Shown here in pieces: positions 2,843 through 33,106 of a stretch of DNA of 64,000 bases (positions are counted from its first letter, which is position 1; the number at the start of each line of letters is the position of its first letter). Source of the stretch: Amphiura filiformis (taxonomy: Eukaryota; Echinodermata; Ophiuroidea; Amphilepidida; Amphiuridae); contig NC_092642.1 of assembly GCF_039555335.1 (NCBI RefSeq), positions 20,340,382 to 20,404,381 of the forward strand, in the 5' to 3' direction. The translations under genes and the position numbers were made by a program. The notes beneath the pieces are model-generated. The model saw nothing but the letters and a program-made list of their open reading frames with translations. It was not told where the DNA came from and made no database searches.

Positions 2843-3382
2843 CTAGTGACAGTCTTCAGTGTATCTCTCATACAACCGATCAGGTGTAGGTGTAGATTTC
2901 CTACACCTATTAGAAGCGGGGTCGTCTTTAGCATCTTGATATTCACAAAGACTTTTTACAGCATTACTATCCATCCAAGACCACATCCTGGATCCTGCTT
3001 TGACCACAACTTTCATCAGCGCAATTGTGTCATTTTCTAACGTTCTCTTGTCATCAAGCTTCGCACCGAAAGCTTCTTGGTATAAACTACATAAAATATA
3101 GGCATCGTCGCCAGACTTCCTTGGTTGCAGATCTTGAAATGCTTGAAAACTGTTACCACATCTTAGTGTTAAATCTGGCGACAGTGAAACGCCGACTGCA
3201 GTTATGCTGTTTGCCAGGATTGAGAAGGTCACTTCTGGTTCATTGTGAGATATGAGGCAGATTGGCTGGTACTGGCGCTCTAAGAAGTGTTTGACTAATA
3301 CTCCACAGGTTTCGTCAAAATCGGAGCAAGGGTGATTCCCGGATCCTTTAGACATGTATCGTGTCGATGGCGACGTAACAAT
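2843..3382 (-). CDS. TREX-like exonuclease gene A, exon 2 (catalytic residues lost)
   Basis: This exon encodes the second half of a DnaQ-like (DEDDh) three-prime repair exonuclease fold: FLERQYQPICLISHN, then a SFQAFQDL segment, then SLYQEAFG and ENDTIALM. It follows a TTTCAG acceptor at 3383 and joins exon 1 (5062-5262) in phase 0, giving about 246 residues; TREX2-type proteins are of similar size. Functional family members remove nucleotides from DNA 3' ends. Here the motif II Asp (HNG..xDF in active members) is Thr (HNEPEVTF) and the motif III His is Arg (RTLEND); only the last Asp remains. Exon 1 has also lost its Glu. The frame is open throughout with good splice sites. I read it as a pseudo-enzyme or a recently inactivated copy. 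Confidence 0.8.
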   Translation of the reverse strand: MVTSPSTRYMSKGSGNHPCSDFDETCGVLVKHFLERQYQPICLISHNEPEVTFSILANSITAVGVSLSPDLTLRCGNSFQAFQDLQPRKSGDDAYILCSLYQEAFGAKLDDKRTLENDTIALMKVVVKAGSRMWSWMDSNAVKSLCEYQDAKDDPASNRCRKSTPTPDRLYERYTEDCH

Positions 3383-3640
3383 CTGAAATCATGAAAGAGT
3401 AGTGGTAATCATTTTACATATCAACTTAATGATTTGCCTTTGGGCCAGGTCAGTGTTAAAGAAATCGTTCGTTTTGTTGGAGTCCGCTTTCTTACTATTT
3501 CTTAGCACTGTAGCACATCTACTGATTACTTGGTGGTCTTGGTATGGCGGCGCCCATGGGTCATGTGGGCATTAAATTTAGTGCCTTTTATTAAATGGCC
3601 TATGGTGACTGCTATTGTTTAAGTTGGCAAGATGGATATA

Positions 3641-4223
3641 TCAATATGATTGGTACCCAAGTGTTCCATCGATTTTTAATAAGTCTGCCATAGCAGTATA
3701 CGACATAAGATTCACATAGTTAAAACTATAAATTGTGACAATTTCAAGAGTCCAATGCTGGGGGGGGCAGCACATCAAAAATTTGGTGGGTATGTTCCCC
3801 GGAATTTTGAGGTGGTGGGTCTTTGGGAGTTGACGGCGTATCGGTAAAAAGGGGGCTTTTGGAGCTGCAAACCGGGCTGCTAACAAGTAAAATGGGGTCT
3901 TTTGGAGCTGCGAACAGTCAAAATCAAGGGTCTTTCTTGGCTTTTTGGTTGAAAATCGCCTGAAAAAACAGAAATATGAGGAATGAGAAATTTGTGGGTC
4001 TTTTAGAGCTGAAATTATCAAAATCAAGGGTCTTTCGGAGCTCTATTTTGGTCAAATATAGGGGGTCTTTCGGAGCTGCGAAATCCAAAAAGGGGGGGGG
4101 GTCTTTCCGGGGAACATACCCGTATGGTCATTTGTGTTGAGTGCCCCCCGGAGGTCCAATGTATTATTGAGAGAAGCAGGCTTTTCAATAAACATTGAAA
4201 TTGATGGGTACCAATCATTTTGA
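3641..4223. repeat. Foldback repeat inside the intron of TREX-like gene A
   Basis: The outer arms TGATTGGTACCCA (3648-3660) and TGGGTACCAATCA (4205-4217) are inverted. The inner arms GGGTATGTTCCCCGGA (3788-3803) and its complement (4106-4121) are also inverted. Between them are about five degenerate direct repeats of GGGTCTTTnGGAGCTG. A TACAGCCTGT word just right of it (4224) resembles the ends of the TA-type foldbacks elsewhere in the window. Confidence 0.6.
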
Positions 4224-5061
4224 TACAGCCTGTATAAGGATATGATGAATGACTTCCTAAAGTTTCCTATACACATATGAATTTGTAAGCGTTCTTTAGC
4301 AAGTCATAGATCATTGAATTTACAACCTTTTGACAAAACAGGCGAAAAAAGGAATCTTTTGCACACGATTTGCAATTTAATGAGAACTGGCCATTGCTCA
4401 TTATGAACAATATAAGTATGCTCTTTCATTTAATGACATGAAATTGAAAAAAGTAAGGAACACTTGAGGTTTTGACTTTTAAAACCTACATTTTTGGTCA
4501 AAAATTGTTTTGAATAGATTTACCACATTGGCCTTGCTATAAACATTGAATTGCGTTACCTGTTGACCTAATGAAAAAGCTGTTTTTAGGGGAAGAGTTA
4601 GCTTTCGTTCGATAAGAAAAAATTCTGATTGGATGAAGGGACCACTTGAGGTTTTGACAAAAACCAATCACAGAGCTTATTTTCCAGCTAGAAGCTCACA
4701 CAGCTCTTATGATGTTATGTACTCAACTGTGTAGTGTAATCAAAGACAGTGTAGAGACAATTCACCATGTTCACTGCTTGCTTGGAAGCTCTTGGACGAA
4801 ATTGTGTGCTCAGGTGTATCGAGGTGGAAACTGTGCATAGACGGTTTATAAGAGAATCGTGTTTGTAGCCAAACCTTTGCCAACCAAATTATCTTTACTT
4901 TCTTGAACAATATAACTATTTCAACTTACAGACAGGGGAAAGAAGAATTACGCATCGCATACTAGCATATTTAAACATGAATTTACAAATGGAAACATAA
5001 CATGCATAGGCAGATATACCAGAGAAAAAACTCCGGACATACTTCCTCTATTTCAACTTAC

Positions 5062-5262
5062 CTTATCTTCATCTCCCATTGACAAAACTAGTTTGTCCAG
5101 TACTTGATCATCAGAATCAGCCGTACTTAGCACCTCAGCGTCTTGTATATTATGCGCAGATACTAGCACTAATTCCGTGATTTTACGCGTACCTTCACAA
5201 CCACAGCATATTTTGACATGTTTGATGTCAAGAAAAACGAATGTTTTGAAAAAAGAACTCAT
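5062..5262 (-). CDS. TREX-like exonuclease gene A, exon 1 (motif I altered)
   Basis: The exon starts at an ATG (5260-5262) and reads into KTFVFLDI, the motif I strand of TREX proteins, then ITELVLVSAH and VLDKLVLS. It ends AAG at 5062 with a strong GTAAGT donor. Active relatives have FLDLET, with Asp and Glu binding metal; here the Glu is Lys (FLDIKH). The ITEL..VSAH and DKLVL segments match gene B (ITELALISVH, DKLVLCIDP), which fixes the family. 67 codons, phase 0. The altered motif shows that the protein, if made, should not cleave DNA by the usual two-metal chemistry. Confidence 0.78.
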
Positions 5263-5891
5263 AGTGTTCTATCACGTATTTGTATGACTGTAATATTGAT
5301 TCAATTTGTGATTGTGAGAGACAAATTTAGTTTAAAAGCTGATTTCGTAGTTTTTAAAGCCTTTATTTAGTAACTTGGGTATTTGGACCGGTGTTATTAT
5401 TACAAGCAAGGGAAATCCCGTATTTAACTCTGCCATGTTGACGCAACATTATTGCTCACGAGTACATATTGCAAAGTTCAAGGACTCGTGTCGATAATTG
5501 TGTCTGTGATCACGCAATGTTTGGAATTCATTTAGTAGAGGATATATATAATTTAGAACAGAGCGCATTGTGGTAATATTGACGTTGTATAAATAAATCG
5601 CTGCTTTGTTTGTTTCAATATTGCGTTATTATCTAATATAAACAAGCAAATATTGCGTGAACTTGTAATAGTTTGTAACTGACAAGTAAAATCATGGAAA
5701 TTAGTGTATGAGCCTGACCCCATCAGATGGCGTGTTTGGTACGATCCGGAGTAGCATTTGGCGGGAAAAGGTCATCGAACTTTACAAAGGGTCAAACTCA
5801 AAACTTGCTCAAATTGGGTTCTATTCACTCTATTCTGAATTTTATATTGCGATAGCTCAGGGACCGTTCAATATTTAATAATAATAATAAT

Positions 5892-10376: not shown

Positions 10377-10838
10377 CAGCCTGTCTCAAAAAAAATTGTG
10401 CAAGTGAAAAGCGCCCTCTCTGGCAATTAGAAAATACCGTTGTGACATAATGCTTACATCAACGTCACGGGCGTAGTCTTAGCTCTCAAATGCCGTTTAT
10501 TCTGTTCAATTTGCTTGCTTTAATTTCGAGATATGTTTAGTTAAAGACAAAAAGGTAAAAGCACAATTGTGCCACTTTTACTAGGGACGAGGGCTTTGCA
10601 TGTAACAGTGATAGCATCAAGTTTATCAAGAGTTCCTTCGTGAAATCAAAATTGTGATTTTACCCTTTCGTTGTTAAATAAACCTCGGAAATTGGAACAA
10701 GCACATTGAACAGAACAAACGGCATATGAGAGCTAAGACTGCGCCCGTGACGTTGATGTAAGCATTATGTCACAACGGTATTCTCTAATTGCCATAGAGG
10801 GCGCTTTTCACTTGCACAATTTTTTTTGAGACAGGCTG
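10377..10838. mobile_element. TA-type (mariner-like) foldback MITE, copy 1
   Basis: Ends are TA|CAGCCTGTCTCAAAA on the left and its complement followed by TA on the right (10375-10376 and 10839-10840). The arms are long, about 200 bases each, and contain AAGTGAAAAGCGCCCTCT, ATACCGTTGTGACATAATGC and GTGCCACTTTTACTAGG. There is no ORF. A second, longer copy is at 36615-37487. The TA duplication and CAG ends suggest mobilisation by a Tc1/mariner-type transposase (inference). Confidence 0.85.
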
Positions 10839-10857
10839 TATGTGATATCACAGACCC

Positions 10858-12308: not shown

Positions 12309-12860
12309 AGTTGTCAATAAACAATAATATCATCATCATCCACAAAAAATTGTCCGAGGTTATGACTCAGAATCTCCAAACATTGGGACGTCGACTAAAA
12401 ATGACATGGATGTGCACCAGCACTAGGAGACATGAACAGAGCTTGTTCATCCACAATATCGTCGGAACGTTTGCGTTTCAGCGCACTGTTTGACTGTTTG
12501 AAGACCGCGACACGGTGTGATAATCCTGAAGACGTTTGGTGGAGTTCTGTTCAAACCAAACACGTATTTTTGCCCAAGAAAAGTTGTCAATAAACAATAA
12601 TATTGACATCAGCATCCACAAAAAGTAGTCCGAGGTTACTCTGACTCAAAATCTCCAAACATTGGGACGTCGACTAAAAATGACATGGATGTGCACCAGC
12701 ACTAGGCGACATGAACAGAGCTTGTTCATCCGCATTATCGTCGGAACGTTTGCGTTTCAGCGCACCGCTTGAAGACCGCGACACGGTGTGATAATCCTGA
12801 AGACGTTTGGTGGAATTCTGTTCAAACCAAACACGTATTTTTTCCCAAGAATTAATACTA
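12309..12860. repeat. Tandem duplication of the 3' end of TREX-like gene B (two units of about 276 bases)
   Basis: Unit 1 (about 12309-12584) and unit 2 (about 12585-12860) both begin GTCAATAAACAATAATAT and run through CCAAACATTGGGACGTCGAC, the last codons of gene B, and up to the TGGGCAAAAATACG/TGGGAAAAAATACG stretch. The gene uses unit 2; unit 1 is a downstream extra copy of the last 60 or so codons plus 3' sequence, with a few changes (for example an extra TGACTGTT). Confidence 0.9.
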
Positions 12861-13228
12861 AGTTTCATCAAACCAATAGCATCATCTTCAGCAGTATGCT
12901 CATTGTAGGTATTTCCAAAGGTACTAAGAAGTAGACTTGTTAACTTATATGATCCTTTCTTGGGATAGACGGCTCGGAAAGCTGACAGACTATCGGCACA
13001 CATCAAATCTAGATTCCCCACACCAGAATCATTTAATTCAAACAATGAGCGCGCTAATATAGGAAAATCATATTGGTCGCCGTTGTGAGCTATCAGACAT
13101 ATCGGTTCCTCCTGTCTTTTAAAGAAACCTTCCAGTTGTTGGCAAATCTGTACATTAAATGTTGACTTCCCATTGTGACGGAGTAATGACCGCGACAAGC
13201 CGGTTATTTTCTCAGCATCCGGTTCGAC
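12674..13228 (-). CDS. TREX-like 3'-5' exonuclease gene B, exon 2 (active-site residues intact)
   Basis: Second half of a DEDDh exonuclease of the TREX1/TREX2 family, which trims 3' ends of DNA. It begins after a CACAG acceptor at 13229 with VEPDAEKITGLS, the expected continuation of the exon 1 end (CIDPEIE). Joined to exon 1 (26654-26896) it gives about 264 residues. Motif II is HNGDQYDF (Asp135) and motif III is HTAEDDAIGL (His192, Asp197; five apart as in TREX1/2), with FFKRQEEPICLIAHNG before. The C-terminus has a basic KRKRS stretch that could be a nuclear signal (inference) and no membrane segment, unlike mammalian TREX1. The link to exon 1 across 13.4 kb rests on matching phase, sequence continuity and the lack of another exon 1 between. 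Confidence 0.88.
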   Translation of the reverse strand, partial: VEPDAEKITGLSRSLLRHNGKSTFNVQICQQLEGFFKRQEEPICLIAHNGDQYDFPILARSLFELNDSGVGNLDLMCADSLSAFRAVYPKKGSYKLTSLLLSTFGNTYNEHTAEDDAIGLMKLSINSWEKIRVWFEQNSTKRLQDYHTVSRSSSGALKRKRSDDNADEQALFMSPSAGAHPCHF

Positions 13229-14269
13229 CTGTGGTTAAAAGAACAAAAGGTTTAGTTTTACTATTTTTTTGTTCAATGCAATTATGCTCACTGTATTACA
13301 TCACCCATAGTGGGTAGGAGAACATGAAAACTAATATGAGATACTGTATTAGGATCACATATTAAGTATCATGTGAGAGTATACTCTTGTACTCCAGAAG
13401 ACAGGATCACATATTAAATATTTGACACCATAGAATATAAAAACTAGTAATTTGATAAGTTAAAATAAGATTTTTAACGGAATAAATCTAAATAATATGA
13501 TTATGCAGTTTATTCCGTTAAATATTTACCCCATAATTTCCCTCATTCTTCAGGCCCTGCCCTCTATCGGGTGCTAATTTAAAGTTTAAGCTTGATTGCT
13601 ATTGTTTCTTTGTAAGCCTGCGGCGCAACCTTGAACAATATTGTCCTTGAGATACCCATATCCTGCTTTTTATATTCCATAGTGTCGCACATTTAATATG
13701 TGATCCTGTCTTCTGGAGTACAAGAGTATACTCTCACATGATACTTAATATGTGATCCTAATACAGTATCTCATATTAGTAGAGAAAAGATGGCGCCCCA
13801 ATGGATGGCAGCAGTTACATCTTGCTCTACATATTTTTAGCTGAAAACTATGCTTTTTGCTGTATTTAGTTCTTCAAAGTTATATTGATGGATTACTTGT
13901 AACTTCTAGACTGCACCTATGTATATATTTTCTACTTTGGAATTGAAACCTGGATGTTTTTAATGGATTTATATTTGTGATTTACATGAATTTTCTGTGA
14001 ATTTTTTTATGTTGACATCAATTCAGTCACCACAACCAACATTAGCCTATGGATCAACCAATCAGAGACCTGCTCATCACAGTTGGTCATTGAGGGAGAA
14101 CCAATCACCAATCAGCCTGAATTGACCATGCACTATGTACATAATGGAAACTTTTATTGACCTAATTTGCATATTGACTCATCTTCCTGTTCAAGTACCT
14201 ACAAACTACTTGAGATAACTTTCTTTTATGCAATAGGAATGTAGTCTTCAAGCTATTGATTTTTACACA

Positions 14270-15070
14270 ATGGATATCCTGCTTTTGAACTTGTTTATTC
14301 TTCTACTCTCCACTGGATCTATTTGTTTGTCTGATAAACTGTCTGAGAACTTTGTACAGACACCCAATATTCAACACGAAATTTGTTACCAAAATGCAGC
14401 ACCCAAACATCACAAATATCTTGCAGGAAGGATTTCCTATAATGTGAATAGAACTGCAACATTTCAAATTGAATTGTTAAAAGCTATGGACATAAATCCC
14501 CATCCTGGACCTACTATAGAAACCAATGAATTTGACAATATACCACATTCCTCATCTACACCCTCACTTGTTTATGATGCTCATCAACTTAGATCACTCA
14601 ATCCCTATACAAACCAATCACCACCACGTCTCATGAATGAAACATGGAATATCATCAGAACTCTGCAAATCAACAGGTTACCTATCAGACGTCGAAGAAA
14701 GAGAGGCGGTCGTCGTAAACCATGGAACCCCCTGCCTACGAATAAAGCAACTGATAACCCCATAGAAGTTCTGACTACGCTTCCAACTAAATATAGAAAC
14801 AATGATCACGATAAACCTAATGGTGCTAATCTATGTAATCTCAAACCCATACCAATGCATAATCCCAAAATAATTTCTGACACTAAAGTTTGTCTTTGGA
14901 ATGCACGCTCTATCCGGAATAAGAACATTGAACTTACTGACTATATTGATGAACATGATGTAGATATTATGATAATAGTTGAAAGTTGGCTCTTGAATAA
15001 TGATGATGTTGTAATTGGCGAGTGTACACCTCCGGGGTACACCTTTATAAATGTCCTCGTATGTCTTTAA
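14270..15070 (+). CDS. LINE ORF, 5' part: signal-like N-terminus, 2A-like motif, start of endonuclease
   Basis: 266 residues. The first 20 residues (MDILLLNLFILLLSTGSICL) are hydrophobic and look like a signal peptide. Residues around 80 read AMDINPHPGPT, close to the 2A peptide pattern D(V/I)ExNPGP, with E to N and N to H changes. Some CR1-like elements of sea urchins and amphioxus are known to have 2A-like peptides here. A basic RRRRKRGGRRK patch follows, then the endonuclease start VCLWNARSIRNK, IMIIVESWL and PPGYTFINV. The frame then shifts: the next expected residues (PRMSLTYGGG) continue in the frame of 15022-17817. One base is missing near 15055. Confidence 0.85.
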   Translation: MDILLLNLFILLLSTGSICLSDKLSENFVQTPNIQHEICYQNAAPKHHKYLAGRISYNVNRTATFQIELLKAMDINPHPGPTIETNEFDNIPHSSSTPSLVYDAHQLRSLNPYTNQSPPRLMNETWNIIRTLQINRLPIRRRRKRGGRRKPWNPLPTNKATDNPIEVLTTLPTKYRNNDHDKPNGANLCNLKPIPMHNPKIISDTKVCLWNARSIRNKNIELTDYIDEHDVDIMIIVESWLLNNDDVVIGECTPPGYTFINVLVCL

Positions 15071-17817
15071 CCTATGGTGGTGGGATTGCTATGATTTATA
15101 AATCTTCTATGAAAATGCAACTTAAGAGTAATAGTAATGATGATGGTAGTTTTAAGTGTACAACATTTGAATATGCTCATATTTGTAACCAATCTTGTAC
15201 TGTAAATTTTCTTATTGTATATAGACCTCCGCCTTCAACTACCAATGGTTTTAAGTACACTACCTTTATTGATGAATTTGATGATTTTGTTAACGAGATG
15301 ACTTCTCTTTCAGGACATGTAATATTATTAGGTGATTTTAATGTACACTGGGATAAACCAGACAAATCTGATGTTAGTCAATTTATCACCATGACAGACT
15401 CTGCTGATTTTATTCAACATGTTCATGGACCCACTCACAAGTCTGGTCATACTATTGATTTAGTCTTCACTCAATCTAATGATCCAATTATTAAGAATTG
15501 TACTACTGATGACACTTTATTGTCTGATCATTATTTGGATCCAATTATTGATGATTGTATTTCTACTCAATACTCCAAACTGTCTGATCATCGTGGAATT
15601 AATCTGATAATTGATACACCTAAGCCACCTCCTATTTATATCAAATCTTCTACCAGAAACTACAAAAATATTGATAGAACTCTATTTGATGATGATTTAA
15701 CTGAATTTCTTAGTTGTCCTGATTCAAAGAATCATGATGCAAATGATCTTCTGGAATTTTATAATAATGGAACAATGTCTCTTCTTGACAAGCACGCACC
15801 ATCTGTCACCAAAACTCGCCGTGTCAAACACAGAATGCCATATTATAATCAGGATATACACAATGCTCGTCAAGTAAAACGCCAAGCTGAAAGAAAATGG
15901 AGAAAATCTCAACTATCTGCTGATCGACAAGAATATACTAAGGCTAAAAACTATGTCAAACACTTAACTGATATTGCTAAGCAGAAATACTTCAAGGACA
16001 AATTAAATATGTGTACAACCAAGGATGCTTTTCGCACAATCAATACACTTTTGAACAAAACTTCACATGTACTACCTATTCATGATTCACCAAGTCTTCT
16101 AAGCAATCAATTTTCAAATTTCTTTGTCTCCAAAATTGTGAAAATCCGCTCAAATCTGGATAGCAATGTTACTACTACTACGAGTACTACAATTAATCAT
16201 GTGACATTCGCTGATAATCATGCCGATCTTCACACACTTTCAATGCTCACACCTGCCACCGAAGAGGAAGTTAGAAAGTTTATTGGCAAATCTCCTAGCA
16301 AAACTAGCAGACTTGACCCAATTCCAACGTGGTTTCTAAAAGAACTGTTGAGCAACGGACATCTTCTTACTCTGATCACTAACATTATAAACTCGTCACT
16401 TTCAACTGGTACTTTTCCAAATGCAGCAAGACATGCTATAATCAAACCACTGTTGAAAAAGCCATCACTCAACAGGAATGTCCTTAAGAACTACCGACCT
16501 GTTGCCAATTTGACATTCATTGGCAAAATCATTGAAAAAATTGCATGTTCCAGACTAACCGATCATATGAACTTGTATAACCTTGCTGATCCCTTCCAAT
16601 CAGCCTACAGATCACATTCTTGCACAGAATCTGCTTTAATTAAGGTAAAAAATGACATTATGTTTGCGTTGGATTCAAACCAAGTTGTGTTATTGGTGCT
16701 TCTAGATCTTTCTGCCGCCTTTGACACCATCGATCATGGAATATTGCTTTCACGCCTTTCAAATCGCCTTGGTGTCAAAGGTGTTGCTCTCAAATGGTTT
16801 GAGTCCTACCTCACTGGATGGTCCATTCGCGTTGATGTAGCAGGAGAACTTTCACAACCAGTAACTGCAACATTTGGATTACCACAAGGTTCAATTGTTG
16901 GGCCTATTGGCTACACAATATACACACTACCTGTCGGTGATATTGCCCGTAAACACAAAGTGTCCTACCATGTCTACGCTGATGACACCCAACTCTACGT
17001 CTCCTGTAATCCTAAGATACCTGGTGAATTAGATAATGCTATTGCAAAACTTCAAAACTGTATATATGAAATCAAAACTTGGATGATCCAAAACAAATTA
17101 CAACTCAACAATGATAAAACTGAATTTTTCATTGCATCGTCTCCTCATAACACACGCTTTATCAACAATGTTTCGCTCAAAATGGGAGATTCAACCATCT
17201 TGCCATCAGAGTCGGTTCGTAATCTTGGTTCATTTTTTGATACAAATATGTCTATGACAACGCACATCACTAATTTATGCAAAACAACTACATTTCATCT
17301 ACGTAATTTAACTAGAATACGGAAATATATTGATAAAGATACTTGTAATCATGCTGCTCGCTCACTTGTTTTGTCCCGTTTGGATTACTGTAATGGTCTC
17401 TTGTCTTCAATTCCACATAAACATGTCCTTCGTCTTCAACGTCTTCAAAACTGGGCAGCTCGACTTGTTTTTAATGTACCTCGCAAGCACGATTCGCAAC
17501 CATTGTTGTCTGCTCTTCATTGGCTTCCTGTCCAACAGCGTATTATCTACAAACTGCTCCTCTACGTCTACAAGACTCTAAACCACTTAGCACCAGATTA
17601 TCTGAATACTTGTCTTCATATTTATCATCCAACCCGTAATCTCAGATCCATCAATGATTTCCTTCGTTTGGATTACCCCAAGGCTCACCTTAGAGCAGGC
17701 GACAGGACATTTACTTTATGTGCTTCACAGGAATGGAATAAACTTCCTATCACAATAAGAGAATCCTCTTCCATCGCGAGTTTTAAAAAGTCAATTAAGA
17801 CCTATCTTTTTCCATGA
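15022..17817 (+). CDS. LINE ORF, main part: endonuclease and reverse transcriptase
   Basis: 931 residues, opened by a GTG with no real start, because it continues the upstream frame after a one-base loss. Endonuclease motifs: YGGGIAMIYK, LLGDFNVHWD, GHTIDLVFT and SDHRGINL. RT motifs in order: YRPVANLTFIGKIIEK, VLLVLLDLSAAFDTIDH, GLPQGSIVGPI and HVYADDTQLYV (catalytic YADD). The C-terminal part has LQRLQNWAARLVF and LHWLPVQQRIIYKLL, and ends IASFKKSIKTYLFP. This enzyme nicks target DNA and copies the element RNA there. All RT motifs are intact; only the frameshift would block full-length protein. Confidence 0.95.
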   Translation: MYTSGVHLYKCPRMSLTYGGGIAMIYKSSMKMQLKSNSNDDGSFKCTTFEYAHICNQSCTVNFLIVYRPPPSTTNGFKYTTFIDEFDDFVNEMTSLSGHVILLGDFNVHWDKPDKSDVSQFITMTDSADFIQHVHGPTHKSGHTIDLVFTQSNDPIIKNCTTDDTLLSDHYLDPIIDDCISTQYSKLSDHRGINLIIDTPKPPPIYIKSSTRNYKNIDRTLFDDDLTEFLSCPDSKNHDANDLLEFYNNGTMSLLDKHAPSVTKTRRVKHRMPYYNQDIHNARQVKRQAERKWRKSQLSADRQEYTKAKNYVKHLTDIAKQKYFKDKLNMCTTKDAFRTINTLLNKTSHVLPIHDSPSLLSNQFSNFFVSKIVKIRSNLDSNVTTTTSTTINHVTFADNHADLHTLSMLTPATEEEVRKFIGKSPSKTSRLDPIPTWFLKELLSNGHLLTLITNIINSSLSTGTFPNAARHAIIKPLLKKPSLNRNVLKNYRPVANLTFIGKIIEKIACSRLTDHMNLYNLADPFQSAYRSHSCTESALIKVKNDIMFALDSNQVVLLVLLDLSAAFDTIDHGILLSRLSNRLGVKGVALKWFESYLTGWSIRVDVAGELSQPVTATFGLPQGSIVGPIGYTIYTLPVGDIARKHKVSYHVYADDTQLYVSCNPKIPGELDNAIAKLQNCIYEIKTWMIQNKLQLNNDKTEFFIASSPHNTRFINNVSLKMGDSTILPSESVRNLGSFFDTNMSMTTHITNLCKTTTFHLRNLTRIRKYIDKDTCNHAARSLVLSRLDYCNGLLSSIPHKHVLRLQRLQNWAARLVFNVPRKHDSQPLLSALHWLPVQQRIIYKLLLYVYKTLNHLAPDYLNTCLHIYHPTRNLRSINDFLRLDYPKAHLRAGDRTFTLCASQEWNKLPITIRESSSIASFKKSIKTYLFP

Positions 17818-18119
17818 TGTGTTTTACTTTGTTGATCTTTATATTTTATGACTTGTATTATGTAAATTTAAGGATTGTACTCTATAATGTTATTTATTTA
17901 AGGTTTTGCTTTGTGTACCTTAAGATGTTTTTATTTTTACTTTGTAAGCGCTACGAGCTTGTCATAAGGAACAGCGCACCAAAAGTTTTATGTTATGTTA
18001 TGTTATGTTATGTTATTAGTTTTCATGTTCTCCTACCCACTATGGGTGATTACATAACGAATGTAAAGTTATGGCACGCCCAGCACTCCCAATTGAGTTT
18101 ACATTACCCTGGCACTTGC

Positions 18120-18309
18120 TTTAGAAGATTTTCAACATTTGGGGGGAGGGGGGCTGAAACTGAAAAATACTTTGATGGGTCACCCTGGGGGTGCCCGAGG
18201 GGAGGGGGCATTACCCCCTCAGAGTCAGAAAATGTTGCAAAATATAGGTCACAAACACCCATTTTCCCTCTATTTTATCACAATTTTTTTAAACTTTCCC
18301 TAGGATTAT
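18120..18309. other. G-rich flank of the LINE/MITE
   Basis: Runs of GGGGG and GTGCCCGAGGGG, apparently a diverged start of the repeat that becomes tandem from 18310 on. Confidence 0.4.
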
Positions 18310-18960
18310 GGGGGGGCTGAATGGGGTGTCTGAGGGGATGTGCCCCTCAGAAGTGAGAAACTTTTGCAAAATGAAGACCTAATTGATGCCATTTGGTGGA
18401 CCATTTTGACATTATTATTGTGTGAAATTTGAGTTTTAAAGAGCGGAAAATATGTGGAATGACCATGCCGGCTCATTTCCTATTCGTGGACAAGTTTTCA
18501 ATATTATAATTGTATAAATTTAATTGCTTGCGCGACGCAGGGGGTGTCTGAGGGGGATGTGCACCCTCAGAAGTTAGAAACTTTTGCAAAATGAAGACCT
18601 AATTGAAGCCATTTGGTGGACCATTTTGACATTATTATTGTGTGAAATTTGAGTTTTAAAGAGCGGAAAATTTGTGAAATGACCATGCCGGCTCATTTCC
18701 CATTTGTGGACAAGTTTTCAATATTATTGTATAAATTCAATTGCTTTAAACATAAAGTTCCGGGTATCCAAAGCATAAAGAAAAGGACAACTTCTTTATA
18801 CATACGCAGGGGGTGTCTAAGTTGGAAAATTGTGCAAAAAGAAGGTCCAGTTGAAGCCATTTGGTGGACGATTTTGACACTATTAAAGTATTATTGTGTA
18901 CAATTTTAGTTAGATAAAGTTCGGAAATGAAGGCCCAATCGAAGCCATTCGTGGAACATT
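18310..18960. repeat. Tandem repeat of about 220 bases, two full units and a partial third
   Basis: Unit 1 (about 18320-18538) and unit 2 (about 18539-18760) start GGGGTGTCTGAGGGG and share AAAATGAAGACCTAATTGA, CCATTTGGTGGACCATTTTG and ACCATGCCGGCTCATTTCC. A partial third starts near 18807 and lacks the later part; another fragment is at 19085-19120. The start of each unit can form a small hairpin (GAGGGG..CCCCTC). Confidence 0.85.
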
Positions 18961-19137
18961 ATCATTATTCACTATTACGGTAGGCCTTATCATTATTATT
19001 TAGTTATTACTTAAAACAATATAGGCCTAAATTGTATGGGTGTCCGAACAAAAGCAAAAACGGCCAGTTGTTTACGCATACGTAGGTGTGTCTGAGGGGG
19101 AAAATTTTGCAAAATGAAGGACTCAATTACGCGCAAT

Positions 19138-19285
19138 TTAACCTTTCTCTTCTCTTTTCTCGCCTTTCTCTTCTCTTTTCTCCTTTTCTCTTTCTCTCCT
19201 TTCCCTTTTCTCGTTTTTACGGGGGGCGCGCGCCCCATCTTTCCTACTTTTGCTATTTTTACGGGGGCACGCGCCCCTCCGCTCC
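19138..19285. repeat. CT-rich low-complexity tract
   Basis: Runs of TTTCTCTTCTC and CCTTTCTC units followed by GGGGGCGCGCGCCCC. The long frames here on both strands are low-complexity artefacts. Confidence 0.8.
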
Positions 19286-19340
19286 CCTGGATCCGCACCT
19301 GAACCCCATACCCAATCTAGTATCCGTATCCACGATTTAG

Positions 19341-19523
19341 AGAATAAACGATAGGAATTTTTATTTTGCCTATCCTCTACCGTGTGATAGACGACAGGCA
19401 GGTCCAATATTTTGAGTAGTGGATGCCGGCGCAGCCGGTATCCACTACGATAAAATATTGGACCTGCCTATCGTCTATCATAGGTAGTGGATAGGCAAAA
19501 TAAAAATTCCTATCGTTTATTCT
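19341..19523. repeat. Near-perfect 183-base palindrome
   Basis: The left arm starts AGAATAAACGATAGGAATTT at 19341 and is repeated inverted, ending at 19523. The arms run to a GTAGTGGATGCCGGC/GCCGGTATCCACTAC tip around 19425-19455 with a loop of three bases. About 85-90 bases per arm with few mismatches. It could be a foldback element; I see no target duplication. Confidence 0.9.
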
Positions 19524-19783
19524 CATTCTTAGTCAGTTAAATATTATTTTAATAACTGTAAACAATTTTTTTAAAGCAAAAACTAAGTTACCGTCATAAA
19601 AACTTCCCTCATTATAAAATGAACGAAACTTGTTTACAACTTTACGTTATTCTGTTGCGCGTACTGCTAGCGCGTTCGCGTATTCCGCACTAGTCTACGC
19701 ATCCAGCGCGATACATACTCGCACCTCTAACGCGTGTTACGGATTATCAAGACGCATGATGACGTGGGGTCGTCTACGTAGTA

Positions 19784-20150
19784 GATAAAGGGTGAGAAAC
19801 AGACCATTACCATAGATAATCGGTGTCTTGTTGAGGTATGGTGAGCATGTTAGTCGCTCGGAAGGCGAGACCCCGAAATCTATGGTAATGGTCTGTTTTG
19901 AACCGTTTATCTTACATATACGGTGAGCCAAAATGAACGAATTTGTTGTTATGGTTTATTCATTTTCCAAAAGACAAAAAGAAAAGCTGATATGATTATC
20001 TTGTGTAAGTTTAGGGTTTTTCCAAAATAAAAACACACTGGGACAGTCATGTGTCCTGCGTTCAAGTCTATGAGTCTTATTGTAAGTGATTTAATCAAAT
20101 CAATACAGCATTGATTTCAATCTATTTAACGCGTTAAACGGGAGATTCTA
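19784..20150. repeat. Repeat family shared with 55.83-57.46 kb
   Basis: AGATAAAGGGTGAGAAACAG is followed by CCATTACCATAGAT; the complement returns at 19875-19916 (ATCTATGGTAATGGTCTGTT..AACCGTTTATCT), forming a hairpin. Then come CGGTGAGCCAAAAT, ATGGTTTATT and TAAGTGATTTAATCAAATC. The same order is found at 55830-56000 and 57400-57445. Confidence 0.75.
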
Positions 20151-21029
20151 TTCAATTCACTCGATAGCCTTATTAATTCTTTATACATATATTCGTAATA
20201 TTAATAATGAATATGTAAATAGTTCAAAGGTCAAATTAAAAAGTGGGTGTGTTTTACCTAGATATGGCGGTAACTCATTTAACACCATAGAATATATATT
20301 TATCTTTAATATACTTATACAACAAATGTCCTGAACAAAATCAACGCATATTCCTGGGTACCCTCCTCGACCTATTTTGGTTGGGGTTAGGCCATGGATT
20401 GTTGTAGTTACTAGTTTTTCTACATCTAGTCTTGTGGCCTGTAATGTACTGCATTTTAGGTGCAAAATATCCTTGGTTGAACTTAATTTGTAAGACCTCA
20501 TGGCTATGTTTTGTTACCTACTTGGTGTCATTCAATACACACAAGTATTGTTTACCATCTTCATTTAAATCTAATATGCATAAACTTGCATAATAATTTA
20601 ATAATAATAATAATAATAATAAAAGAGATTTATATAGCGCATCATACAGAAGTCTCGATGCGCTTTACAGAGCACACATACATAAAAGTAAAAACTAAAT
20701 AAATGTACAAAAATCCTTAAATAATACACCTTAAAATACAAACTACAATAACAAGATTAATTAGGCTACACCAAGCATCCCTCACAAGGAAAGGAGAAAA
20801 TAAGAACGAGCAAAGGGTCCCAACCAAGTGAAAGACGCATGGTAGCACAGCATATACATACAGAGTAAGCAATAAAACAATGACCATATTATATTTACAG
20901 GCCATTATACTCATTATAGCAAAAACCAAGTTCAACATGATCAATATAAAAACATAATAATTATTAAATGGCGAATAAGATCAAATCAGACAGAAGCGAG
21001 AAATATTTCAGCTTGGAAAAACAGCAATA

Positions 21030-21452
21030 TGATGGTGGCACAGCACCCTGCTGAGGGGAGAGGTTGCCAGCACGTCACCCTCAGCTAGAAACATAATAAA
21101 TAAAACGCGAGATATGGGGTGGCACAACACCCTGCTGAGGGGAGAGGTTACCAGCACGTCACCCTCAGCGAGAACAAACATGATAATACAATTAAAATTA
21201 AGGCGTAGGCGAGACCAGCGGCGAGAACAACATTATGCCGATTATTAAAACGCAATATGGGGTGACACAGCACCCTGCTGAGGGGAGAGGTTACCAGCAC
21301 GTCACCCTCAGCAAGAACAACACAGAAGTATTTTTACAAGATATATTTGACGAAAAACAGCGATAACTATCTGGCGATAAATAAAACACGAAATGGGGTG
21401 GCACAACACCCTGCTGAGGGGAGAGGTTTCTAGCACATCACCCTCAGCAAAT
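21030..21452 (-). repeat. Four spaced copies of a 50-base hairpin in the LINE 3' region
   Basis: Copies begin near 21033, 21118, 21261 and 21396. Each reads (plus strand) CACCCTGCTGAGGGGAGAGG, then TTACCAGCACGTCACCCTCAGC, so GCTGAGGG pairs with CCCTCAGC. The spacers between copies are unlike in length (about 35-90 bases). Changes between copies sit mostly in the loop. Confidence 0.9.
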
Positions 21453-21764
21453 TGAAACATAATAAATTATATAACAACAAAATCACAGATGAATCAAACA
21501 ATGAAAAGATGCGTCTTCAGAAGTCGCTTGAAAGAGTGCAGCGAGTCAGCAGAACGAATGTTATGTGGCAGGTTGTTCCACAGAAAAGGTGCAGCGAACG
21601 CGAATGATCTTTCCCCATAATACTTGGTAGATGGACGACATGTGACTGAGAGAAGTGATTTAGAAGACGAACGAAGTTTGCGACTAGGATTGTAGTGCGA
21701 GATGAACTGTGAGATGTACAGAGGAGAAAGTTGATTTTGAGCCTTGAAGGTCATGAGAAGAATC

Positions 21765-23399
21765 GGCTTTTGTCTAACACACGCGTCACGTCACGTCACG
21801 TCACGTCACGTCACGTCACGTCACGTCACGTTGAAATGTTATCAAAAGTTCATAATAAATTGAAATGTTATCAAAAGTTCATAATAAATTATTAACTCCA
21901 CAATTACCCTTATCTCCCTACGTGATAAATAGTCCGTGAAATAGTCCATGGAATTCCAGCTTTTCATCAATGCCGCAAAGCACAGCAAAGCTTCAATGAA
22001 TAAAATAATCGGGAAATGTTTCATGTATGGAAAGAGGAAAATGATTTTGAAACTAACAAATGTTTTGGTAAAAGTAACAGACATTTTGGAAGTTCACATT
22101 TACTTCGTTCTCCATGTTTTATGTGTAAACCGATTTTCATTGTGAAGATCGTCAGCGTGCCCCCTGCGCTGGCTGCCAAATTAAGAGTAAATCAGGATGT
22201 GGTTGTGATTGTGTTTCAAAGTTTTGATATATTTTTTTTCCATTTCAAATTATGAGTACAAGATGCGATTTTGTGCTAAACTCTCGCAAAAAGTTCGGGT
22301 GTTTTCATGTCATAAATTTTGTACAAGTTTTCTTTTTAAAAATGCATTCAAAAATAGCGGGTGCTCTGTATTTTTGCATGGACCATAAAATGGCATTTTT
22401 CAAAACATTTGCTCCAGACATGTTGACTGCATGTACATGTTTGAACATGTTTGCTCAATGCTCACCCTCGGTACATGTACGCCTTTTATCTTGTGCCGCT
22501 TCCGCAGTAGGCCCTACCTGCGTGTCGTCGCGTTACACAAAGACTTTTGATACATGCATGTTTACAGTCAGCGCGTCTCAAGTATGGTACAGCCACCACT
22601 TCAGCGTACACATCAGCTTGTTTATAAATTTCTGATTGGACGAAACAAATCCCTCGTGTTGTCGTGGTAAAGTAATTGTTTTTATTATAGCGAACATTTG
22701 CAGTAAAGCTAGCTTTGAGATGGTGTATTTTATCATGATCGCCGATTTATTTAACCATGCGACACATGTGCATAATACAAGCGTGGCGCACGCGAGTGTT
22801 TGTTTAGAAAGCAAAGTACATGTTGATTTTTGTGATGAATATTTTTTTGTGTATTTCAAAAATTTTCAAAGTTGACATTACATGCTTTAGAAAATGTTCC
22901 ATTTCACAACTGGGTATCTTGCTTGCCTTCACTGGTTGACAAGAATCCTTTTGCTCATTCATTGTTGCTAGTGTAGACTGTGTAGTAGATTTAATGACCT
23001 AAATTCAAAAATATTGTTTCCCCTTTCAAAACCAAACCATTTTTGGGGTGGCGCATGCATGTTTAGGCATTCTTCTGGTAAATTTTTTTCCATGCATGGC
23101 TCTCATGTTTAAGCAGTATATGTTTGAGTACCGTACTTCATGTTTTCCTCGGACTGATCACCCAAGGAACACGTGTTCACCCTCTCAGGTTCCATGGACT
23201 ATTTCACGGACTATTTATCACGTAGGGAGATAAGGGTAATTGTGGAGTTAATAATTTATTATGAACTTTTGATAACATTTCAACGTGACGCGACGTGACG
23301 CGACGTGACGTGACGTGACGTGACGTGACGTGACGTGACGCGTGTGTTAGACAAGTGACGTGACGTGACGTGACGTGACGCGTGTGTTAGACAAAAGCC
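21765..23399. mobile_element. Non-autonomous DNA transposon with CGTCA-repeat ends and 8-base target duplication
   Basis: The flanks are GAAGAATC at 21757-21764 and 23400-23407. The ends are GGCTTTTGTCTAACACACGC on the left and the complement on the right, followed inwards by runs of CGTCA (TGACG on the right), then a second inverted block (GAAATGTTATCAAAAGTTCA to AATAGTCCATGGAA). The right end has an extra internal copy of the GTGTGTTAGACAA terminus at 23341-23353. The inside (about 21960-23180) has no transposase motif. An 8-base duplication fits hAT- or Mutator-type elements, but the ends alone do not decide. Confidence 0.92.
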
Positions 23400-23785
23400 G
23401 AAGAATCTTATAGATTATCCGCTGTTGTACAGGGAGCCAGTGAAGTGCCTGAAGAATAGGAGTGATGTGTTGATACTTGGAGGTGCGAGTGACGAGCCGG
23501 GCTGCAGTGTTTTGAACTCGCTGCAACTTGGAGATATAGCTATCCGGTAGGCCGTATAACAAAGAGTTGCAGGAATCAATCCTTGAAGTAACAAATGCGT
23601 GAACTAATCTCGCTGTGTTATGCTGATCGTGTAAAATATGTAAAAGTCAAAATTAGAGCCCTCTCTTGTTTGATCACGTCATAATGTAATGTGATGCATT
23701 TTAAGTTTGTTGAAATGTCCAAAAAATCAAATAATGTGGCCAGTGTTTCTAAATATGAACATGTACGTCTCTTGTTCAAAATTTA

Positions 23786-23914
23786 TTGACCTTACCAAGA
23801 TTATCTTGACCTGACCAAGATTATCTTGACCTGACCAAGATTATCTTGACCTGACCAAGATTATCTTGACCTGACCAAGATTATCTTGACCTGACCAAGA
23901 TTATCTTGACCTGT
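23786..23914. repeat. 20-base minisatellite, about six to seven units
   Basis: Unit TTATCTTGACCTGACCAAGA, nearly identical across units; the first unit is degenerate (CTTACC) and the last runs into CTGTCC. Each unit carries TGACCT/AGGTCA, a nuclear-receptor half-site word, at regular 20-base spacing. This is only an observation of sequence. Confidence 0.95.
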
Positions 23915-24478
23915 CCACATTACTTGATATAATCAACAGTTGACCAGACTTTGAACAAAAGAAATACAATAGATAATGGAACAAAAGAAGAGGGCTAGAC
24001 GTATATGGCCTGATAGACGGCACCCAAAATCATGCGATTGTCCAATCAGAAAGGTGTCTACGAACTAGACCACTCCCACTGACTAAGAATGACCAATTCA
24101 CAATGGATTTCACCCTATAGAGGGCATACTAACTGATTTTCGACCAATGTAGCATGCGGTTGGGGTTCCCGTATCACGTAAATTTCGCAAGTCTCTCTAT
24201 ACTGATTTGGAACGCCTAATCTCAATGTTAATGAGAAAAATATTTTGATTGAGTAAAGTGGGGGATGGGTAGAGAGAGAGAGTTACTATCTAATAAGAAA
24301 TTAAAACGAAAACTTAATATCTCTGTGATTAGTATCTTTATTTATTTTTTAAATTCTCTTAAGACCAGTATTTGGTAAAAAAAAGCTTTCGCATGTAGTA
24401 ACATGCACTTTGCATTTTTGTTGTAGATTTATGGGCCAACAAGATCCCGACAATATTACTTCTTGTTTAGATTATTTA
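23915..24478. other. No feature recognised
   Basis: Mixed AT-rich sequence with a short GAGA run near 24270. Nothing I can support. Confidence 0.35.
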
Positions 24479-24660
24479 GATGTTCCCAAATAACTATCAA
24501 TTGAATAATTATTGGGATCATGTAAGCGCATGATTTTGAGAAAGGTCCAAGTTCAACTGGAGTCTTAAAGTTTATTTGGATGTTCCCAAACAATTTTCAC
24601 TTGAAAAATTATTGGGATCATGTTGTCACGTTTAATTTGAGAAAGGTCAATGTTCTTGAA
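24479..24660. repeat. Imperfect direct duplication, about 95 bases
   Basis: GATGTTCCCAAATAACTATC (24479) and GATGTTCCCAAACAATTTTC (24580) start two copies that share ATTATTGGGATCATGT and TTTGAGAAAGGTC. Confidence 0.8.
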
Positions 24661-24889
24661 AAGGCTGTTGCACGGCGCAAAATGCCCATTTTTAATAATT
24701 GTAAAATTGCTCAAAAACACTTTCAACGCACGTATGGAGCAATGTAAACATGGTAAATAAACAGGTAGATCCAGATTAGTTTGAGGGAAACATGTAAAAT
24801 ATGCACAAATGCTGACACTTGAACTTGAACTTTCCTCAACCACCATGATCAAACTAGCTCATAGCCACGTACATAAGCTCAGCCAGTGG

Positions 24890-25055
24890 TGTAGCGTCAT
24901 AGGGGCAGGGGGGCACGTTCCCCAATCGATCTGAAATTTTAAAAAATCCTATAGGAAAATTGTCGAAAAACGGCTTGTGCCCCCAATCAGATCCGGTGCC
25001 CCCAATCATGTTCGGTGCCCCCCCCCCATGTGATGACCCACGCTACGCCACTGGC
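24890..25055. mobile_element. Short MITE with CAGTGGTGTAGCG / CGCTACGCCACTG ends
   Basis: Inverted ends CCAGTGGTGTAGCG and CGCTACGCCACTGG bracket about 165 bases rich in GTGCCCCCAATCA. A truncated relative is at 6726-6912. A clear target duplication is not visible; CAG ends of this kind are common in hAT-type MITEs. Confidence 0.75.
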
Positions 25056-25262
25056 TGCTGAGCTGATGTCCACTACTACAGTCAGTCTACTCTGAAGTAA
25101 AAAGTACCGACGCGGACGCACACATTATGCCGACTTTGAAAGCACGCATACCTCAGCAGAGACGCAGCACTGCGCACTGTTTACGCACTGTACACGCGCG
25201 CGTTGTCACTTTGTACTTCAGAGTGGACAAACTGTAATATAGGCAGCAGTAAGCTGCATCTT

Positions 25263-25599
25263 AGGCTAAAAAAAAGTTATGTCTCAAAGCCCACGCGCGC
25301 GTTCGTTTTTCTTATCGCGTCCATGTCAGCTGAAATGGCAAATAAAAGTCAAGTTTTTATTTTTTCAAAAAAAAAATTTGTTTTAGTTTTTTGCCGTAAA
25401 ATCATGAAATTCTGAGACAAATTTCGAAGAAAAGTTACTCGCATTGATAAGGTATTTTGGGTATTTTGAACACTCGAAATGACATCTTAATTCATAATTT
25501 GTTTGAAAAATATCAACAAAAAAATCTTTAAAAAACCCCTCATTCCGCATTCGTTTTTGAAACTGCCATGGGCTTTGAGACATAACTTTTTTTTAGCCT
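25263..25599. mobile_element. MITE with AGGCTAAAAAAAAGTTATG ends
   Basis: The left end AGGCTAAAAAAAAGTTATGT plus CTCAAAGCCCA is inverted at 25568-25599. TTA flanks both sides (25260-25262 and 25599-25601 overlap the end). 337 bases, no ORF. Confidence 0.85.
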
Positions 25600-26653
25600 T
25601 ATAAAAAATTCATATTAGGGACTGTTCACAAATTATGAACCTAGTGGTTAAATTTCCAAATGGAGTGCCAAATTGCCCCCCCCCACCCGTTATGCGTGCC
25701 AAATATCGCCTGCCCCTCCTCTCGGCCTACCAAAAAACTCCCTTTTGCACACGATATTAAAGTTGCATATCAATGATGACATGGAGTAACTCCATTAATA
25801 CTCTTTCAGAGCAATGATTAACTTTTAGTTCAAACCTGTTGTATGTGATTTATTACAACTATGCTGTAAAAAGCTATTATGATTGACCTTATAACACACT
25901 TATGTACGTGTCCAAGCTCAAGTTGATTGTCCAAGCTTGATATGGGGCGCAAATAGACCTATTTTATAGTCGTCACATTCCACTATGGTATGTAAGAGCT
26001 ATTAATAGATAGGCAGACCCAGAGACACGAGGAGAGAACGAGTGAGGTATGGGTGAGGGGAGAGAGAGATGAGAGAGAGGGGAGACAGCGTGAGGGAGGC
26101 GGGAGGGAGGGAGAGAGATTACCTACAGATCGCTCCAAACATGCCAAACTAGTATTATATGTAGCCTATTTCCCAATGAAAGGTCCAAACATTTAGGCCT
26201 ATAGTTTATATGTAGGCCCTACACCGGGGCCCTACAATCCCCATTTTCTCAGCTCAGTGATGCGTGAACTGATTTTGATGATTTTTTCACCAGTTTTACA
26301 TTTTAACGAAGACTCTTCGTGTTCTTGAATCTTTAAGCATATTTTAAGTTAACCCCTCCCAATTCACAGGTCCTATTTTAATTGAGATACCTTACAGAGT
26401 ACTACTGATCATGTCTGATGTAGGTTTATTATAAAGGTGTATCAGTCAGTCGTGAAAAAGAGTTGGGCCGTATCTTCTTTACATGTGGTACGTGCGGAAG
26501 AGGTGAATATCTATTACACAAAAACTACTCCCTGGTAATTACAAAGTCGTTTTATAAAATAAATTCGTGTCAAAAATCAAAACTTTTCGATAACAGTAGC
26601 CCTGAAAGTGGCCTTTCTACCCGGGCCTTTCTATCAGTCCAAACTTGGCTTAC
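25600..26653. other. No gene; repeat fragments and a GA-rich tract
   Basis: 25640-25760 is a C-rich repeat similar to 10050-10180. 26025-26120 is a GAGA/GGAG-rich run. The rest is AT-rich, and the last part is the start of the TREX-like gene B intron. Confidence 0.5.
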
Positions 26654-26896
26654 CTCTATTTCTGGGTCAATACACAACACGAGTTTGTCAACAATTCGTG
26701 GCGTTAACTTCCACCTGGCTCTTGCATCGTCCATGGATTTACGATGAACTGAAATGAGAGCCAGTTCAGTGATTTGTATCGGTGAAATTAGACCTGTTGT
26801 CTCCAGATCAAGAAAAACAAAAGATTGGATCTTGTCTCTTTGGTCTCTTGACGTCGATGTTGACACACTTGAAGACGAAGTAGTTTTGTCCGCCAT
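26654..26896 (-). CDS. TREX-like 3'-5' exonuclease gene B, exon 1
   Basis: The start is the ATG at 26894-26896 (MADKTTSS), preceded by CAAA and followed by GCG, a good context; an upstream in-frame ATG at 26993-26995 would add 33 less TREX-like residues. After a Ser/Thr-rich lead comes motif I, QSFVFLDLETTGL (Asp30 and Glu32 bind metal), then ITELALISVHR and IVDKLVLCIDPEIE. The exon ends GAG at 26654 with a GTAAGC donor, phase 0, 81 codons. Exon 2 at 12674-13228 continues it exactly as in the family. This is the only one of the three copies that should be an active exonuclease. Confidence 0.88.

Positions 26897-28891: not shown

Positions 28892-28944
<53 letters not shown>
28891..28944. repeat. 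(CAAT)n microsatellite overlapping the TREX-like gene C stop codon
   Basis: About thirteen CAAT units. On the minus strand it is (ATTG)n; the TGA that ends the gene C frame (28940-28942) falls inside it. Confidence 0.95.
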
Positions 28945-28945
<1 letters not shown>

Positions 28946-29403
28946 TTCGATCACTGGAAGTGGTGAGCATGGATATTCAGACAACTTCTTCACTGCATAT
29001 TTGTCGAACCACATTCTCATATTGGGACATGAATTGATAACAAGTTCCATCAATGCTATAGCATACATTTCAGCATTGTGATATTCCAGATGTTTTTGAA
29101 GGTTTCTTTGTAGAGGTTCGGCAAACTGAAAGGCTTATACCCAGGTTTTGGTCCAAGAACCTTATAAAAAGCCTCCAAACTATCTCCACATCTGATATCT
29201 GGTAGTAGATGTGCTCCAATTGATGCAAGCTTTTTTGAGAGAAGCACGAAGTCAAACTTTGATCCGTTATGTGCAATAAGGCAGACAGGTTGAGCTTGAC
29301 GATCTAGGAATTGAGAGATCAAGCTTCCAACATTCTCGTCAAATTCCCTCTTTCCTGCGTTCTGCAATTCATCCCGAGTCAGTCGATTTTCTTCAAATTG
29401 GAT
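28940..29403 (-). pseudogene. TREX-like exonuclease gene C, exon 2 (frameshifted)
   Basis: It follows a TTACAG acceptor and reads FLDRQAQPVCLIAHNG, SKFDFVLL (motif II Asp present), GDSLEAFYKVLG and SLPNLYKETFKN. At about 29093-29097, in a run of five A on the coding strand, one base is missing; the frame then continues HLEYHNAEMYAIALMELV to a TGA in the CAAT repeat. Motif III keeps His but the final Asp is Tyr (HNAEMY). 464 bases, one short of a multiple of three for this phase 0 exon. Together with the broken exon 1 this is a pseudogene. Confidence 0.85.
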
Positions 29404-30440: not shown

Positions 30441-30474
30441 ACACCAGAGTGCTGTTTTAACAGCACTCTGGTGT
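30441..30474. repeat. Perfect 16-base inverted repeat
   Basis: ACACCAGAGTGCTGTT, loop TT, then the exact complement. A strong hairpin in an otherwise plain intron of TREX-like gene C. Confidence 0.95.
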
Positions 30475-31675: not shown

Positions 31676-32333
31676 GGGATCTAAAATGAGCGTTTATTGC
31701 GTTTCGACAGTATTTTTGTGGGACATGAGAGCACCTCAGACCTATCGAATTGCATTCTGAATACGAAGCATGTCTTTCTGATATCAAATAATTTTCATTT
31801 TTGAAAATCACAATATAATACACATTTTATGACAAATTATAAAAATTTGATATTTTTCAAATTTTTGATATATATTTCAGTCCTCGAAGTAAATTATATA
31901 AATCTAATGATATATTCTTAAAGTGTATGTAGCAGGGAGGAAAAAGCCGACGGTCAATTGAAAATTTTGACCTTTCATATTGAAGATATAGATTTGTTTC
32001 CCAAAAAGACCTAATTTTTTTGGTGTTTTGGGAAAAAAATCCATATCTTCAATACGAAAGGTCAAAATTTTCAATTGATCGTCGACATTTCATCCCACCT
32101 ACATACGTTAAGTATAAATCATCAGATTTATAAAGTTTACTTCGAGTACTGTTAAATATCAAAAATATAAATTTTAATGATTTGCCATAAAATGTGTATT
32201 AAATTGCGAATTTCAAAAACCAAAATTATTTGATATCAGAATGACATTCTTCGTATTCAGAATGCAATTCGATATGTCTGATGTGCTCTAATGTCCCAAA
32301 ATAAATACTGTCCAAACGTTCATACCCCAGCCC
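31676..32333. mobile_element. TTAA-type long foldback element, copy 1
   Basis: TTAA at 31672-31675 and 32334-32337. The left end GGGATCTAAAATGAGCGTTT is matched inverted at the right. The arms are about 300 bases and share TCGAATTGCATTCTGAATAC, CACATTTTATG and AATTGAAAATTTTGACC. Nearly the whole element folds on itself. No ORF. Other copies: 43839-44475 (full) and 35815-36025 (right half). Confidence 0.9.
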
Positions 32334-32334
32334 T

Positions 32335-32780
32335 TAAAGCAATATTATAACATTATCATACAAAATAGATTAGCATTTCTTTGACATAAAATGTTAGTTT
32401 TTACTGTCAGATATATCCCCTTTTATTTTTGAGCCGAACAACTACGTCAAAGCAAAGAAAATTGGAATTTACTACCAGCGCGTATGTCGCCAATACGTAC
32501 CACTCCTTCGGTCATGTTATGGTACGACCTTTGTTGTGTAGATCACCGTCCCGCACTGTGTGTTATGAACATCGTGTATGCGTTCGACTAATAATTCCAT
32601 CGTAATAATAAGACGCCGGTTCCGGCGCTTTATTCAAAATATCGGATTTTGACAAAACTACAGCACCTAGAGTCTTGATTTTTGCACGGTATATTGGTTT
32701 AATAAAGTACAATATAATTGTGCAAAAAAATGGATTTTAAAAAATCAGTGAGGGCGTCCTCAACAGCAAATGTTATAATA
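32335..32780 (-). repeat. Dispersed repeat (GACGCCCTCAATATTTT family), minus copy
   Basis: Reads on the minus strand GGACGCCCTCACTG, TATTGTACTTTATTAAACC, CAAAAATCAAGACTCTAGG and TTTGTCAAAATCCG, then CATAACACACAGTGCGGGAC and AAATTCCAATTTTCTTTGCT, ending AATGTTATAATATTGC. It lines up with 62265-62700. Confidence 0.8.
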
Positions 32781-32918
32781 TGGCTTTAAGTGACTAAAAT
32801 ATATGTACTGGTTATTGTTCGGAGCGGCACGATATTGCTCGATCATGCAATGCCTGCCAATCGATCACAAGCAGACATTGCGTGAGCTTTATTGCGTGAG
32901 CATTGTAAATTTACTAAC

Positions 32919-33106
32919 CTCTTCACCAGGGTCGACGAACAACACGAGTTTATCATCACCCTTGGCAAGTGTCCCGCTGCAATAGTCCACTTACGCATGG
33001 AATCTTTATGTAAGGCGACAAATGCCATTTCGGCTATCTCGTTAGTTTCAGATCCAGTTGTTTTAAGGTCGAAGAAGACGAAGGTTTCGATTTTGACTGC
33101 AGGCAT
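32919..33106 (-). pseudogene. TREX-like exonuclease gene C, exon 1 (frameshifted)
   Basis: Starts ATG at 33104-33106 (MPAVKIETFVFFDLKTTGSE): motif I is DLK where active members have DLE. Then come EIAEMAFVALHK and a one-base shift near 32960, after which the family end DDKLVLFVDPGEE is read in the next frame. It ends GAG at 32919 with a GTTAGT donor. 188 bases, one short of phase 0. Loss of the motif I Glu is shared with gene A. Confidence 0.85.

Follow-up and report, generated by a model that had tools for sequence, protein, structure and literature searches.

A stretch of 64,000 nucleotides from the ophiuroid Amphiura filiformis (GCF_039555335.1, NC_092642.1, positions 20,340,382 to 20,404,381; here called the window) carries three TREX-like genes, A, B, and C, arranged head to tail on its minus strand, in the order C, B, A along transcription. 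It is probable that they represent an old family of tandem animal TREX genes for 3'-to-5' DNA exonucleases that turns over by birth-and-death, with B as a working enzyme, C as a pseudogene, and A as a pseudo-exonuclease. By this account, B would be a DEDDh exonuclease that uses two metal ions and trims DNA 3' ends as a dimer, like TREX1 and TREX2, as its full catalytic motif suggests; C would be a lost gene, its frame broken in both exons; and A would have lost three of the five catalytic residues while its frame was still selected. An earlier note, made from the letters of this DNA, had placed three TREX-like genes head to tail within 2843..33106 and had suggested turnover, or dead copies that act as decoys or regulators. 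The cluster is confirmed, and of the interpretation the family assignment, the shared gene plan, one intact DEDDh copy, and local turnover are supported.

Sequence similarity far beyond chance assigns all three genes to the TREX family, and for A, B, and C the homology runs across the nuclease domain and ranks ahead of that to other DnaQ-fold nucleases. The best PDB match of B, with its exons joined, is mouse TREX2 (8.5e-33), and TREX1 chains match at 2.5e-32 to 7.2e-30; 29 distinct PDB sequences score at 1.4e-27 or better (28 named TREX1 or TREX2, plus chain 9l8a), and the next one stands at 2.5e-09. C, with its pieces joined and X at the breaks, also matches mouse TREX2 best (7.4e-21) and 9l8a second best. 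Joined A finds 9l8a first (1.2e-15), then TREX1 at 1e-13 or weaker. Chain 9l8a was deposited as an exodeoxyribonuclease III, yet its identity to the TREX1 and TREX2 sequences of this analysis is 44-49%. As the earlier note had described, the copies share a two-exon plan: each has one intron with GT-AG borders, in phase 0 and at an aligned position, a few residues past the conserved DKLxL strand. Joining the exons raises the match scores, which supports the splices of B and A. For Pfam RNase_T, the exon-1 frame of B alone scores 14.1 bits and the exon-2 frame gives no match, while joined B reaches 31.4 bits, above the cut-off of 24; the score of A rises from 39.0 bits with exon 2 alone to 61.0 with the exons joined against 9l8a, and from 46.9 to 54.6 bits against 9l86. 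The possibility named in the earlier note, that the exons come from unrelated DnaQ-type exonucleases or from retrocopies, can practically be dismissed: the wide step in E-value behind the 29 TREX-type sequences matched by B and the lead of TREX chains for A and C speak against the former, and processed retrocopies are excluded because the phase-0 intron is kept at the same place in all three genes. No extra TREX exon was found in the whole window by tblastn with the six exons as queries, a repeat of the tail of B aside; the lowest E-value beyond these was 0.22. A scan of IMG/VR with B returned 15 stretches that fit a pattern, none of them a relative, and a scan of PHROGs with B matched two families of phage DNA polymerases (best 4.2e-21) and gave nothing TREX-specific. 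The window looks like eukaryotic DNA of the animal kind; its G+C content is 32-40% in 4-kb blocks.

The five catalytic DEDDh residues, as named for TREX2 (PMC6294518), were mapped onto the three copies by alignment. The sites Asp, Glu, Asp, His, and Asp are occupied in B by D, E, D, H, D (5/5), numbered D30, E32, D135, H192, and D197 exactly as the earlier note had listed them, in A by D, K, T, R, D (2/5, with the first and last Asp kept), and in C by D, K, D, H, Y (3/5). The losses claimed for A (Glu, second Asp, His) and for C (Glu, last Asp) are thus present as K, T, and R and as K and Y. The reading frame of B is open for 265 codons with a single terminal stop, and a second in-frame ATG lies farther upstream of exon 1 within the same open frame. 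As the only copy with a full DEDDh set in an intact frame, B is predicted to encode a working enzyme. Leu20 and Ile77 of mouse TREX2 stack on the 3'-terminal base (PMC6294518); the aligned sites are Leu and Ile in B, Cys and Ser in A, and a gap and Leu in C. Gaps lie close to the Leu20 site in both A and C, and A has a 4-residue insertion beside its Cys. Directly downstream of B exon 2 lies a tandem repeat of its 3' end, with 217 of 238 alignment positions identical and 11 gap positions, and the frame of this tandem copy is broken by an 8-nt insertion. The intron of B also holds, on the opposite strand (+), a long interspersed nuclear element (LINE, 14237-17817) with endonuclease and reverse transcriptase (RVT_1, 5.3e-30), the open frame of which changes a single time, near 15007-15070 in the endonuclease part.

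C is a TREX pseudogene despite keeping more catalytic residues than A. Its frame shifts between the KDSM and DKLVL stretches of exon 1 and again past ETFKN in exon 2, and it is this break in each exon that identifies it as a pseudogene; the stop codon falls inside a 13.5-copy 4-bp repeat array. Graded decay along the array, as the earlier note had it, was rejected, since the copies rank differently by catalytic loss than by frame damage. C is broken with three of five residues and A has a clean frame with two of five, so two fates are mixed and the array is not a gradient of one process. The related picture of one live copy with dead relatives holds for the intact B and the dead C; it does not hold for A, the frame of which is open and for which neutral decay is unlikely in simulations.

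The reading frame of A is unbroken for 246 codons and has a single terminal stop. In-frame stops lie directly upstream of the ATG in exon 1, and an AATAAA begins five bases beyond the stop in exon 2. The coding frame has 0 stops, the other two sense frames have 15 and 28, and none of 5000 base shuffles of A was open. When 50 columns identical in B and three PDB TREX sequences are taken as invariants, A keeps 28/50 and C keeps 35/50. Release from selection was simulated with the B coding sequence as stand-in ancestor, at G+C 0.37, a transition/transversion ratio (kappa) of 2, and indels at 0 or 0.1 per substitution. In these simulations, the loss of 22/50 invariants needs about 0.27 substitutions per site, and by that point the frame was open in 0/400 runs without indels and in 0/400 with indels at 0.1. 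A second simulation, with 40,000 runs per setting and neutral time drawn up to 0.2, left 5307 and 2262 frames open in the two settings; all three of the catalytic residues lost in A had changed in 6/5307 and 0/2262 of these, and at least 22 invariants were lost in 0/5307 and 0/2262. Because neutral simulations fail to yield the state of A, this gene is probably to be regarded as a candidate pseudo-exonuclease that gave up catalysis at a time when selection still maintained its protein, and it probably still makes, or made until very recently, a protein without nuclease activity.

Amino-acid identity is 30.4% between A and B (230 positions), 36.9% between A and C (203), and 37.6% between B and C (205), so that the copies are roughly as distant from each other as B is from mouse TREX2 (37.6% over 205 positions). 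The proportion of synonymous differences (pS) is saturated in the three pairs at 0.83-0.85, while that of nonsynonymous differences (pN) is 0.41-0.49, compared with about 0.73 for shuffled codons; each copy would accordingly appear to have evolved largely under selection on its protein. Outside the exons, blastn matches between the gene bodies are short and weak (best 21 bp, E 0.001), on which ground a recent segmental duplication was rejected. The low identity, the saturated pS, and the few non-exon matches together indicate that the duplications are old or that the genes evolve fast. A tree with three PDB sequences groups A and C against B and these three, with modest support (ultrafast bootstrap 67 and Shimodaira-Hasegawa approximate likelihood ratio test 76.2 under LG+G4, bootstrap 84 under WAG+G4). 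A and C have Lys in common at the catalytic Glu site, with codon AAA in both. The loss of Glu may predate the A-C split, but two independent single transitions could also account for it, and the A+C grouping is not firmly supported. The neighbouring gene for a rhodopsin-type G protein-coupled receptor (GPCR, 38845-39813, +) also has a partial, frame-broken copy downstream (41963-42413, +; 71% over 104 aa, 90% over 50 aa; frame change near 42264), which shows that the TREX genes are not alone here in having been copied in tandem with later decay.

Several points weigh against an old family with a selected but inactive A. The splice sites and gene models of the three copies are predictions from sequence. 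The two other groupings in the tree were not rejected by the approximately unbiased test (p 0.21 each). The simulations take B as proxy for the ancestor, assume rates and an indel ratio, and draw the invariants from four sequences. Nothing indicates selection for an inactive site in A: invariants at DNA contacts are 4 kept and 3 lost (n=7), those elsewhere 24 kept and 19 lost (n=43; Fisher p = 1.0), and with losses not enriched at DNA contacts, no hint of a change directed at the active site is seen; loss focused on that site was therefore rejected as an explanation. No Pfam family matches joined A at E up to 1, and A has the longest branch in the LG+G4 tree (A 1.50, B 0.85, C 0.86). Two of three outgroups also show A evolving faster than B (chi-square 8.3 and 7.4), while the third gives 0.47. 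The fast evolution and the missing Pfam match might also fit a dying gene, and A could then be a very recently dead one, an active TREX until lately that has since evolved neutrally and has acquired no stop or frameshift yet. The long branch, the rate, and the scattered, unfocused losses favour such a history, which is nevertheless unlikely, because three catalytic losses in an open frame arose in so few of the neutral releases described above, because no open simulated frame had lost 22 of the 50 invariants, and because the Lys-for-Glu in common with C may point to an older loss. The frame breaks of C could be assembly errors, which would leave C intact save for two catalytic changes. The breaks are small and one adjoins a run of five A; that both are false through assembly or sequencing error is very unlikely in view of two separate breaks, two catalytic replacements, and a stop within the 4-bp repeat.

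If A is a pseudo-exonuclease, as preferred here, it may have a regulatory role. It could be retained as an inactive TREX subunit that tunes B by pairing with it or by holding DNA ends, a reading that is quite unlikely at present. A keeps the residues aligned to the human TREX1 dimer contacts D65, R114, and Q115 (contacts from PMC9314330), and in humans the well-characterised dominant mutants of TREX1 lack activity and act as competitive inhibitors of the wild type (PMC9323106). None of the six aligned sequences, pseudogene C among them, differs at the three contact residues, which makes these weak evidence, and at R97, a further dimer contact, A has Cys while the other five sequences have Lys or Arg. 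The Cys beside an insertion and the Ser of A at the 3'-end-stacking sites also count against this reading. Distinctly unlikely is a fuller version, in which Glu was lost before the A-C split, the inactive lineage was long kept as protein, and A is now a dead partner of B, as heterodimer or DNA-end holder, that sets the rate of stray-DNA removal.

Mammalian TREX2 (PDB 6a45, 1y97) is like B in the nuclease-domain match and the DEDDh set, while B differs by a Ser-rich N-terminus, a KRKR-containing tail, and a coding region split by the phase-0 intron. TREX2 is encoded by a single exon. Human TREX1b likewise has a single exon and is 314 aa long (PMC12206365); by their lengths, B (265 aa) and A (246 aa) are without its long C-terminal part. 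TREX1 (PDB 7tqp and others) has the nuclease domain and the dimer-contact positions D65, R114, and Q115 in common with the three copies, but A, B, and C are shorter in the proline-rich loop region of the alignment. Chain 9l8a and A both begin with MSS; unlike A, 9l8a has a full DEDDh set. A would also resemble pseudoenzymes that arose from duplicated enzyme genes in its open frame, its family similarity, and its replaced catalytic residues. Mammalian TREX1 clears cytosolic DNA that would otherwise trigger DNA sensing, and TREX1 mutants without activity inhibit the normal enzyme and so give rise to dominant disease (PMC9323106). Among the matches listed in narrow literature searches, none described a clustered invertebrate TREX family or an inactive TREX paralogue, which does not prove absence in print. 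An inactive paralogue found in nature with its frame kept beside an active one, if real, could be used to ask whether animals employ such inhibition on purpose; the present case, as far as its sequence suggests, would be a tandem family of the ordinary sort, in which one copy is broken and another is a candidate pseudoenzyme. The coordinates of the predicted exons and associated features are given in the table.

Table. Predicted TREX features in the window, in order of transcription.
Feature	Position	Strand	Remarks
TREX-C exon 1 (pseudogene)	32919..33106	-	DLK for DLE; donor GTTAGT; frame break between KDSM and DKLVL
TREX-C exon 2 (pseudogene)	28940..29403	-	acceptor ACAG; frame break past ETFKN; last catalytic Asp replaced by Tyr
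TREX-B exon 1, starts at ATG	26654..26896	-	DLETTG motif; donor GTAAGC
TREX-B intron, about 13.4 kb	13229..26653	-	contains opposite-strand LINE 14237-17817
TREX-B exon 2, including stop	12674..13228	-	His and last Asp within HTAEDD
Partial tandem copy of TREX-B exon 2 3' end and flank	12346..12580	-	source 12622-12851
TREX-A exon 1, open	5062..5262	-	DIK for DLE; donor GTAAGT
TREX-A exon 2, open	2843..3382	-	second catalytic Asp replaced by Thr, catalytic His by Arg

Other features in the window include protein-coding sequences and repeats. A Dual-specificity phosphatase domain is found at 35240-35674 (+; 5.5e-29), and two exons with an Alpha-amylase domain, at 59146-59526 and 60569-60922 (-; 3.4e-15 and 8.2e-26), perhaps belong to an SLC3A-type gene. 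A GIY-YIG domain fragment at 399-944 (+) scores 21.7 bits, just below the cut-off of 22.6, and may come from a Penelope-like element. Two related inverted-repeat elements, at 10371-10843 and 36609-37492, have arms 89-95% alike within and between copies and are perhaps non-autonomous DNA transposons. An interstitial array of TAACCC, the common animal telomere unit, occupies 50532-50641, and at 21002-21450 an 86-nt unit occurs four times, spaced, each time containing CACCCTGCTGAGGGGAGAGGTT.

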